In this document: positions 21,142 through 23,747 of the stretch, piece by piece | Layout of the letters: the number at the start of each line of letters is the position of its first letter | Position numbering within the stretch: the first letter of the stretch is position 1 | DNA from: Janibacter sp. HTCC2649 | GTDB lineage: Bacteria > Actinomycetota > Actinomycetes > Actinomycetales > Dermatophilaceae | NCBI RefSeq assembly: GCF_000152705.1 | Contig: NZ_CH672413.1 | Location: forward strand, 1,897,978-1,961,977 | Direction of reading: 5' to 3' | DNA: 64,000 nucleotides | The notes under the pieces: generated by a model | The model's input: the letters and a program-made list of their open reading frames with translations, nothing else | Told to the model about the DNA's origin: nothing | The model's database searches: none | Program-made: the position numbers and the translations under genes

Positions 21142-21683
21142 GCCTCCACTGTCTCTGACGACACCGGCGGGCGGCAAGCCGGGTCCACCGCGACGGCATA
21201 CCCGATCTCCTTGATCCCGCCGTAGAGCGGGTTGTCCCAGCTGGTGCCGGTGGGAGCGAAGCCGTGCCGCTCGTAGAGGCGCTGGGCGGGGAGGTTCTCC
21301 TGGGCGACTTCGAGGTGGACGCGGACGTAGCCGTCCTGACCTGCGGCGTCGAGGGCCGCAGCGACGAGGAGGTCGCCCACACCGCGTCCGCGCACGGACG
21401 CCGAGACCCACATTCCGATGAGGTAGATCTCGTCGTCGGGCTGGTCGGCGCCGTGCCAGATGGAGACCGTGCCGACGGGTCGGTCGTCGACCATCGCGAG
21501 GAACACACGCATCGAGGTGAGTCGTGCGAGCCAGGACTCGTCCGAGTAGGCCGCGCTCACGGCATACGTGTTCGCGAAGGCCCGTGGGGTGTCGAGGAGC
21601 GCGGCGAGGCGCACGTCGCGATAGGTGCGCCAGTTGTCCTCGGTGACGGGGACGACGCTGGCCGGGCCCTTCGGGTCAGCCAC
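21138..21683 (-). CDS. GNAT family N-acetyltransferase
   Basis: This 181-residue acetyltransferase has the acetyl-CoA loop VSASVRGRGVGDLLV near residue 95 and YERHGFAPTGTSWDN near the end. The GTG start at 21683 overlaps the proC stop by 8 bases, indicating coupling with proC. Its N-terminal WRTYRDVRLAALLDTPRAF resembles the neighbouring GNAT (WQQYRDTRLTALRESPEAF), which supports a local duplication. Substrate unknown. Confidence 0.85.
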   Translation of the reverse strand: MADPKGPASVVPVTEDNWRTYRDVRLAALLDTPRAFANTYAVSAAYSDESWLARLTSMRVFLAMVDDRPVGTVSIWHGADQPDDEIYLIGMWVSASVRGRGVGDLLVAAALDAAGQDGYVRVHLEVAQENLPAQRLYERHGFAPTGTSWDNPLYGGIKEIGYAVAVDPACRPPVSSETVEA

Positions 21684-22476
21684 CGGACAGCTCCCGCGAG
21701 CGAACCGCGGCTGCCTCCATCGCGGTGACGAAGGCGGCCCGGACCTTGTGGTCGTCGAGGACGCGCAGAGCGGCAGCCGTCGTGCCGCCGGGCGAGGTGA
21801 CCTGCTCGCGGAGCACCGTCGGGTGCTGACCGGTCTCTCGGAGCATCGTCGCCGCGCCGTAGAGCGTCTGGGTGACGAGCTCGGTGGCGGTGGCACGCGG
21901 CATACCGAGGACGACGCCCGCCTCGATCATCGCTTCGACGACGTAGAAGATGTAGGCCGGTCCGCTGCCGGAGATCGCCGTGACCGCGTCGAGTTGCTTC
22001 TCGGGGACCTCGGTGACCTTGCCGGTTGCGGCGAGGAGCTCGATGGCGTGGGCGAGCTGGTCGGGCATGCAGTGCTTGCCACCGCTCACGGCGGCCATGC
22101 CTTCGTCGACGAGGGCGGGGGTGTTGGGCATGACGCGGACGACGGAGCGCCCCTCGGCGAGACGGCTCTCGATGAACTCGGTCGTGATGCCGGCGGCGAG
22201 GCTGACGACGAGGTTCCCGTCGGCGACGTGGGGGCTGATCTCGTCGAGCAGTGCGGCCATGTCCTGCGGCTTGACGACGAGCACGAGGGTGTCGGCACCT
22301 GCCGCGGCCTCGACGTTGCTGACGGCGCGCACGCCGTACTTCTCCGTCAGCTCGGCGGCGCGCTCGGCGCGTCGCTCGGTGATGACGAGCTCGTCAGCCG
22401 GGCGACCGGAGCGCAGCAGACCCGAGAGCAAGGTTTCGCCCATGACACCAGCACCGAAGATCGCAACCGTTCCCAT
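21676..22476 (-). CDS. proC: pyrroline-5-carboxylate reductase
   Basis: This 266-residue enzyme reduces pyrroline-5-carboxylate to proline. The N-terminal NAD(P) loop is IFGAGVMGETL, VVKPQ and RVMPNTPALV are conserved, and the substrate-binding SGSGPAYIF with the C-terminal VTSPGGTTAAAL identifies it firmly. It begins the proC-GNAT-GNAT overlap series and lies downstream of proline dehydrogenase on the same strand, separated by a tandem repeat array. Confidence 0.95.
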   Translation of the reverse strand: MGTVAIFGAGVMGETLLSGLLRSGRPADELVITERRAERAAELTEKYGVRAVSNVEAAAGADTLVLVVKPQDMAALLDEISPHVADGNLVVSLAAGITTEFIESRLAEGRSVVRVMPNTPALVDEGMAAVSGGKHCMPDQLAHAIELLAATGKVTEVPEKQLDAVTAISGSGPAYIFYVVEAMIEAGVVLGMPRATATELVTQTLYGAATMLRETGQHPTVLREQVTSPGGTTAAALRVLDDHKVRAAFVTAMEAAAVRSRELSGG

Positions 22477-22565
22477 GTCGCGAGACTAAGCCCTCGTCAC
22501 GTCGCGCTTCACGTGCGTTTCATCGCCGGGTATGCCGCCCGCCCGCCTCTCGCGGGCAGCTCCGC
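22477..22565. other. spacer between proC and the 59-bp array
   Basis: No gene is visible. It holds one octamer GTATGCCG at 22530 and a short GC-rich inverted repeat (GCCCGCC then CTCGCGGGC). It should contain any separate proC promoter, but I cannot point to clear -10 and -35 elements. Confidence 0.4.
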
Positions 22566-22801
22566 CCTTGGAGACGAGGTTGCGCAGGAAGAGATCTCGT
22601 GTGTGGACCTCCGCGGCACTCAGACCTTGGAGACGAGACTGCGCAGGAAGAGATCTCGTGTGTGGACCTCCGCGGCACTCAGCCCTTGGAGACGAGGTTG
22701 CGCAGGAAGAGATCTCGTGTGTGGACCTCCGCGGCACTCAGCCCTTGGAGACGAGACTGCGCAGGAAGAGATCTCGTGTGTGGACCTCCGCGGCACTCAG
22801 C
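22566..22801 (+). repeat. four tandem 59-bp repeats derived from the proline dehydrogenase 3' end
   Basis: Copies begin with CCTTGGAGACGAG at 22566, 22625, 22684 and 22743; a fifth, diverged partial copy at 22802 is the true end of the gene. The period is 59 bases. Copies 1 and 3 read GAGGTTGCG and copies 2 and 4 GAGACTGCG, so the array also has a 118-bp higher order. On the minus strand each unit carries the last codons and stop of the gene (LRNLVSKG, stop) plus about 30 bases containing the palindrome GAGATCTC and CCGCGG. The units are far more alike than any is to the gene end, a sign of recent homogenisation. Confidence 0.95.
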
Positions 22802-23747
22802 CCTTGGAAACCAAACTGCGCAGGAAGAACTGCAGGTTGGCGGGGCGCTCGGCCATGCGGCGCATGAGGTAGCCGTACCACTCCTCGCCGAAGGGCACAT
22901 AGACGCGCATCTGGTGTCCGCGGTCGGCGATGCGGGTCTGCTCGTCGGGGCGGATGCCGTAGAGCATCTGGAACTCGTAGGAGTCGGGTTCGCGTCCGTG
23001 GCGGCTCGCGAGCGCCCGGGCGATGTCGATGAGGCGCGGGTCGTGGCTGGCGATCATCGGGTAGCCGTCGCCCTCCATGAGCACCTTGAGGCAGCGCACG
23101 TAGGAGAGGTCGACATCCCCGGCGTCCTGGTAGGCGACCGAGGCCGGCTCCTTGTAGGCGCCCTTGCACAGTCGGACCCGGCTGCCCGCAGTGGCGAGGT
23201 CACGACAGTCGGCCTCGGTGCGGTGGAGGTAGGACTGGACGACGGCCCCGGTGCTGGGGAAGTCCTTGCGCAGCTCGGCGAGGATCCCCAGCGTCGAGTC
23301 GGTCGTCGTGTGGTCCTCCATGTCGAGGGTGACCGTGGTGTCGGCGTCCTTGGCGATCTCGCAGATGCGGCGGGCGTTGTCGAGGGCGATCTGCTCGCCG
23401 TCCTGGGGCAGCGCCTGGCCGACGGCGCTGAGCTTGACGCTCACCTCGGCGGCTCCGAACTGCGTCAGGTCACGTGCCTTGAGCGCCCGCAGCAGGCCGA
23501 CGTAGGTGTCGACGGTGTGGGCGGCCTGACCGGCGTCGAGCGTGTCCTCACCGAGGTAGTCGATGGTCACCATGCGGTTCGTCGCGCGCAGCTCGGCGGC
23601 CGCACTGACCGCATGGGCCACATCGGTCCCCGGCACGTAGCGCTGCACGACGGAGCGGCTCACCGGCGCCTTCTCGATCGTGCTGCGCACGAGCGAGGAG
23701 TCGGACAGGTGCAGGAGACTGGAGCGAAGCAGGTCTGAGGCATCCAC
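22797..23747 (-). CDS. proline dehydrogenase
   Basis: This 316-residue FAD enzyme oxidises proline to pyrroline-5-carboxylate. It is the monofunctional, PutB-like form. Conserved parts are VSVKLSAVG near residue 110, TLDMEDHTTTD near 140, RLCKGAYKEP near 195, and the C-terminal YVPFGEEWYGYLMRRMAERP. It ends FFLRSLVSKG. No pyrroline-5-carboxylate dehydrogenase gene is adjacent. Immediately after the stop lies the 59-bp array copied from its last codons, between it and proC. Confidence 0.93.
   Translation of the reverse strand: MDASDLLRSSLLHLSDSSLVRSTIEKAPVSRSVVQRYVPGTDVAHAVSAAAELRATNRMVTIDYLGEDTLDAGQAAHTVDTYVGLLRALKARDLTQFGAAEVSVKLSAVGQALPQDGEQIALDNARRICEIAKDADTTVTLDMEDHTTTDSTLGILAELRKDFPSTGAVVQSYLHRTEADCRDLATAGSRVRLCKGAYKEPASVAYQDAGDVDLSYVRCLKVLMEGDGYPMIASHDPRLIDIARALASRHGREPDSYEFQMLYGIRPDEQTRIADRGHQMRVYVPFGEEWYGYLMRRMAERPANLQFFLRSLVSKG

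Follow-up and report, generated by a model that had tools for sequence, protein, structure and literature searches.

The 64,000-nt stretch of DNA analysed here (the window) carries a 59-bp tandem array in the gap between the gene for proline dehydrogenase (ProDH) and proC. It is likely that this array is an intergenic minisatellite of a single locus, formed by a duplication of the 3' end of the ProDH gene and a later expansion. The ProDH 3' end, together with about 31 bases from the stop on, would have been duplicated in tandem (g0-spacer-g1), either in an ancestor shared by several Knoellia species or within a single one of them, followed by exchange. In the species to which the window belongs, the unit made of the spacer plus g would then have expanded, the first step giving two units with small differences and the next multiplying this pair as a block of 118 bp. 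Slippage or unequal recombination could have been the motor of this expansion. In other species deletions and exchanges within the array would have reduced the number of copies and moved array copies into the end of the gene. A ProDH C-terminus that came out of such an exchange would in most cases still work, since most units end in the same codons followed by a stop. The array is probably near-neutral and looks like an ordinary repeat that changes fast.

Structure of the array

The array extends over positions 22546-22828 and was reported by TRF with a period of 59, 4.7 copies, 93% matches and a score of 476; the second-best array of the window scores only 78. It is thus real, as the first-pass annotation had it, and its single match in the window's genome (G000) lies inside a 4.22-Mb contig. 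On the minus strand each unit is composed of the last 28 bases before the ProDH stop and a 31-base stop-and-spacer (the stop and 28 further bases). Since ProDH is on the minus strand, the units proceed toward lower coordinates (Table 1). The earlier derivation of the array from the 3' end of a proline dehydrogenase gene is borne out by this composition, and the assignments of the proline-degrading gene and of proC hold by the family matches given in the table. The units stand head to tail, are highly alike and measure tens of bases, as in a minisatellite or VNTR.

Table 1. Positions of the array units, the adjoining genes and nearby signals in the window
Feature	Position	Strand	Description
ProDH gene	22797..23747	-	316 aa, source of the repeat; Pfam PF01619, E 1.8e-35; ORF
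Unit 0	22769..22827	-	ProDH's own last 28 bases (end of ...FLRSLVSKG), stop and spacer
Unit 1	22710..22768	-	complete, stop present, AGTC type
Unit 2	22651..22709	-	complete, stop present, AACC type, Asn codon
Unit 3	22592..22650	-	complete, stop present, AGTC type, G to T giving K-V-stop
Unit 4	22560..22591	-	truncated, AACC type, about 32 matching bases, TGA changed to GGA, then flank
Hairpin	22541..22557	-	GCCCGC-GAGAG-GCGGGC, short, G+C, directly after the array, no T run; by sequence reading
Promoter-like box	22483..22488	-	TAGTCT, 6 bases before the proC ATG
proC	21676..22476	-	pyrroline-5-carboxylate reductase, same direction as ProDH; TIGR00112, E 3.6e-85, above cut-off

Besides the gene's own copy there are three full units and a truncated one. 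The claim that four units follow the stop, each with the last codons and a stop, stands for units 1-3 and fails for unit 4, and in unit 3 the last codons are not K-G-stop. A higher order of 118 bp, in which units 1/3 and 2/4 match best, is real, yet it rests on two adjacent bases (AGTC versus AACC). The gene copy had also been described as diverged at synonymous and other sites. Against unit 1 it differs at 3 of 28 bases, all of them synonymous (TTG GTT versus CTC GTC), and a difference of the other kind, at a Ser/Asn codon, exists against units 2 and 4. TTG and GTT of unit 0 are unique within the ProDH gene, which has 33 Leu and 24 Val codons in total, and the downstream copies have the usual ProDH codons in their place. 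The unusual codons therefore belong to the gene copy rather than to the array. The 31-base stop-plus-spacer shows 0 differences among units 0-3, and these four identical spacers uphold the view that the array was recently amplified or homogenised. The palindrome noticed earlier in the units, GAGATCTC, is present at each of the four spacer-unit junctions; it is not kept in the three other species in which an echo of the gene end was found (G002, G004 and G008).

Echoes of the gene end in Knoellia

The closest loci were those of K. subterranea, K. locipacati and Knoellia sp. Soil729, and the genome was accordingly placed in Knoellia, Intrasporangiaceae. By the 800 bases before the ProDH stop, which were identical, these three correspond to G006, G008 and G005, respectively. 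In nine Knoellia species (G000-G008, one genome per species) the sequence between the ProDH stop and proC was examined, and an echo was defined as the best ungapped match of the last 30 ProDH bases within 300 bases downstream. Four of the nine have an echo at the ProDH end, with scores of 27/30 (G000), 25/30 (G002), 30/30 (G004) and 20/30 (G008) at distances of 59, 59, 60 and 62 bases. At 100 distinct non-Knoellia loci the score was at most 18/30; the loci numbered 124 in all, 109 of them distinct, and included some far relatives. The echo of G008 barely exceeds its own shuffles, whose maximum was 17-19 in three sets of 60, and is counted as such because of its place and spacer. There are thus four extra copies in the window's species, one each in G002, G004 and G008, and none in G001, G003, G005, G006 and G007, and G002 has in addition a degenerate piece of a third copy. 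Copy number consequently varies between species, as in a VNTR.

The array itself is rare in the sample. A DNA search of 186 genomes of the family gave matches in 32 and found the array once; matches of about 100 bases were seen in G002 and G008, and the others were short (about 20-60 bases). The search missed G004 despite the echo in that genome, so it is no proof of absence elsewhere. Within G000, 751 ORF ends were scanned for an echo of at least 21/30 at offsets of 30-159 bases, a threshold that an echo as weak as that of G008 (20/30) would escape, and only ProDH gave one. The ORFs, all of at least 120 aa, were chosen on length and GC3 from a sample of 864 kb that consisted of the window and 40 stretches of 20 kb, about 20% of the genome. 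Repeats inside genes usually have periods divisible by 3. Such periods were found in 27 of the 30 tandem-array rows listed for the G000 sample (41 in total, with several rows per array), and the exceptions among those listed were 59 (the ProDH array), 71 and 23. Among the matches listed from open-licence papers, no title or abstract dealt with a ProDH array or with tandem repeats of Knoellia.

Other repeats of G000 were also observed. The period of 71 comes from a palindromic element at L144:10829-10970 (G000:C1:1210829-1210970), which has two tandem copies 97% alike and a 27-base third piece, with arms of 24-25 bases, and lies apparently between genes. Large tandem repeats of 294 bp (L138:13748-15816) and 267 bp (L158:12468-13799), both multiples of 3, lie within stop-free frames of 2401 and 1009 codons, respectively, and probably encode repeat-domain proteins.

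The spacers of the four echo species look homologous. When aligned and compared with shuffles, G000-G002, G000-G004, G002-G004 and G002-G008 gave p values of 0.001-0.002 and G004-G008 gave 0.011; for G000-G008 p was not under 0.02. In the control, 2 of the other 72 stretch pairs (78 were compared) also had p <0.02 (0.013 and 0.014) and looked unrelated, so single p values near 0.01 mean little. The homologous look of the spacers across species suggests that the first duplication was probably shared, either predating the window's species or having been exchanged. The expansion in the window's species is recent, because the spacers within its array are undiverged and those between species are diverged. 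The amplification proposed in the first-pass annotation thus keeps its recent date; its starting duplication was probably not private to this species, as the homologous-looking spacers of three congeners suggest.

Trees do not group the four echo species. At least 3 changes were needed on the ProDH plus proC tree (2 of them forced by branches with good support), 3 on the ProDH tree (1 forced) and 4 on the proC tree (1 forced). The echo label was no more clustered than in shuffles, 222, 236 and 500 of 500, respectively, being as low. The ProDH plus proC tree is itself poorly resolved, with 5 of its 8 inner branches open. Since the echo species stay ungrouped, losses, exchange between species or repeated origins would be needed.

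Traces of exchange between the gene and the array are seen in several species, in gene ends that are short and under protein constraint, which limits the comparison. The two copies of G004, in the gene and beyond it, are the same (30/30), and both contain CTCCGC, which is absent from the other species; in G002 an ACC is common to the two copies. On the sequences, this sharing is concerted change. Variants have also changed places: G008 has TCC TTG in its gene, whereas in G002 this variant stands in the extra copy; AGT CTC GTC, which G002 has in its gene, sits in the extra copy of G000 and G008. A deletion of the first unit by recombination could yield such a swap, and codon variants swapped between species are as expected of unequal recombination. 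The window's unit 3 has a 14-base word, CCAAGGTCTGAGTG, in common with the degenerate third copy in G002, the G to T change included, which hints weakly at an older and longer array. One could go further and regard the array as a renewable store of gene ends. A translatable ProDH C-terminus is preserved in its units, mostly together with a stop. Recurrent contraction would bring an array copy into the gene and so recycle the C-terminal codons (Ser/Asn and Ser/Thr choices), and copy number would tune the spacing to proC; we hold this reading to be improbable.

The gap before proC

In the nine Knoellia species the gap between ProDH and proC measures 86, 95, 118, 147, 187, 190, 197, 261 and 320 bases, the widest being that of the window, and the five species free of the array account for 86, 95, 147, 190 and 197. 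At 74 of the 100 distinct non-Knoellia loci proC lies downstream on the same strand with a median gap of 18 (quartiles 6 and 42), and a gap of at least 86 occurs in 6 of these 74. The gaps of Knoellia and of the other loci differ in a rank test (p 1.7e-5, with relatedness ignored).

Some of the other Knoellia gaps contain palindromic repeats. A palindromic core, TCGGGTGACCCGATAATG, is found in 15, 10 and 5 exact copies in G008, G002 and G006, respectively, and in none of the six other Knoellia genomes; it occurs, for example, in the ProDH-proC gaps of L004 and L008, and we take the element to be REP- or MITE-like. The gaps of L003, L007 and L010 have inverted repeats with GGACATGCA(G/A)TGG arms, and a similar pattern exists elsewhere in three of the nine genomes (G003, G006 and G007). 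The dispersed palindromes and the 59-bp array occupy the same gap; the palindromes recur elsewhere in their genomes, whereas the 59-bp unit has one locus. From the palindromic repeats of other species it appears that the gap takes up repeats generally, and the 59-bp array would be one of several routes by which it grows.

A promoter-like box lies 6-7 bases before the proC start in all nine Knoellia species, as TAGTCT in eight and TAGGCT in one; a stricter pattern of the box matched seven of the nine genomes. A TAG(T/G)CT box so near the start presumably fits a promoter of proC's own with little or no leader, and it suggests a nearly leaderless proC transcript. A sigma-70-type scan reported no promoter before proC. 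The array ends at 22560, about 70 bases upstream of the box and about 84 bases before the proC ATG, which begins at 22476.

Signals by which the array could act on transcription were searched for. The fold of the 354-nt region was no better than dinucleotide shuffles (z 0.78), and the same was true of one-unit folds in the four echo species (z 0.94, -0.99, 0.64 and 0.12). A pairing between the spacer end and the gene end is tempting by eye, but the folds do not favour it. In the array the terminator scan gave no hit; its one weak site (5 pairs) lies at 22834-22819, in the ProDH coding end, where 0.2 were expected by shuffles. The units do not behave as intrinsic terminator repeats, since no better-than-shuffle hairpin with a T run was found per unit. 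The hairpin directly after the array is a possible transcript end; the scan did not report it. As to a Rho-type signal, C exceeded G by at most 11 in any 78-base stretch of the G000 gap, a value reached by 54% of random genome regions of the same length. The excess is somewhat higher in the gaps of G004 and G008 (reached by 24% and 19% of random regions), and the extreme value, 28, is that of G006, which is free of the array; the C excess thus does not follow the array. No Rfam family matched 22300-23000 with E values up to 1 allowed, and an 83-aa ORF across the units had no Pfam or NCBIfam match. The period of 59 is not divisible by 3, and the units are therefore spread over all three frames. 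Stop-free frames span arrays generally, the ProDH array included, so they do not distinguish coding from non-coding here.

Origin and meaning of the array

Other explanations of the array have to be weighed. It may be a regulatory spacer whose copy number sets how transcription or translation passes from ProDH into proC. The two genes are co-oriented and lie close together in relatives, against 86-320 bases in Knoellia, and the layout is similar to that of rnc-fpg1 of Mycobacterium tuberculosis (PMC2734929). However, the gap is wide in the five Knoellia species free of the array as well, some of them with other palindromic repeats, the array stands upstream of the proC-adjacent block with the promoter-like box, and neither a fold nor a C-rich signal was seen, which makes this explanation unlikely. 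An effect of copy number on proC is possible. The effect on transcription put forward in the first-pass annotation is not supported by the fold, the C-over-G bias, the position of the array or the shared direction of ProDH and proC, and the role it gave the array between opposing proline pathways is not favoured by the sequence.

Attachment sites can replace the end of a gene upon integration. An integrative element inserting at the ProDH 3' end could thus have brought its own copy of that end, left direct repeats and been lost, with the repeats multiplying later. This would agree with the place of the lone TTG and GTT, which sit in the gene copy and not in the copies downstream; synonymous drift of the gene copy explains these codons equally. 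Only 31-32 bases separate the stop from the next copy in the four echo species, with no element or integrase between the repeats, ProDH is followed by proC in all nine Knoellia species, and two degenerate gene-end patterns had no exact match in viral contigs. A lost element is, for these reasons, distinctly improbable. Near-identical units are a known problem in assembly, and copy number could have been inflated in this way. But units 1, 2 and 3 are mutually different and unit 4 has no stop, the array lies inside its 4.22-Mb contig, and an echo is found at the same place in three other species; an artefact is thus very improbable indeed. Duplication of the ProDH end followed by expansion remains the reading that we prefer.

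The array was also compared with known repeats of mycobacteria. The rnc-fpg1 gap of M. tuberculosis is reported to measure 279-358 bp with repeats within the complex, against 1-54 bp outside the complex; fpg1 mRNA was modestly higher where the repeats were longer (PMC2734929). VNTR3239 (ETR-F) in this gap is, like the ProDH array, an actinobacterial tandem repeat that fills a gap short in relatives and does so in one subgroup of a genus only (PMC2734929). Its repeats start 40 bp after the rnc stop and have parts of 37, 18, 26 and 16 bp, whereas the ProDH unit contains the last codons and the stop of the upstream gene. For VNTR3239 the same paper reports polymorphism among strains and a link to expression. 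Mycobacterial interspersed repetitive units (MIRUs) also have units of 40-100 bp and a copy number that varies at some loci (PMC2734929 and PMC12548453). MIRUs are dispersed (41 places in H37Rv) and are described as inserting at start codons and coupling to the next gene, whereas the ProDH array has one locus and ends before the proC ATG. The array was accordingly not taken for a MIRU, as G000 holds a single match and the array end (22560) does not overlap the start codon (22476).

The locus shows clearly, on a small scale, how a repeat that comes from the upstream gene's own end can separate two bacterial genes of a tight pair. The swapped variants may record past exchanges between the gene and the array, and in Knoellia the array could be of use as a marker of strains. 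If its copy number altered the expression of proC, the situation would be like that of rnc-fpg1 in M. tuberculosis.
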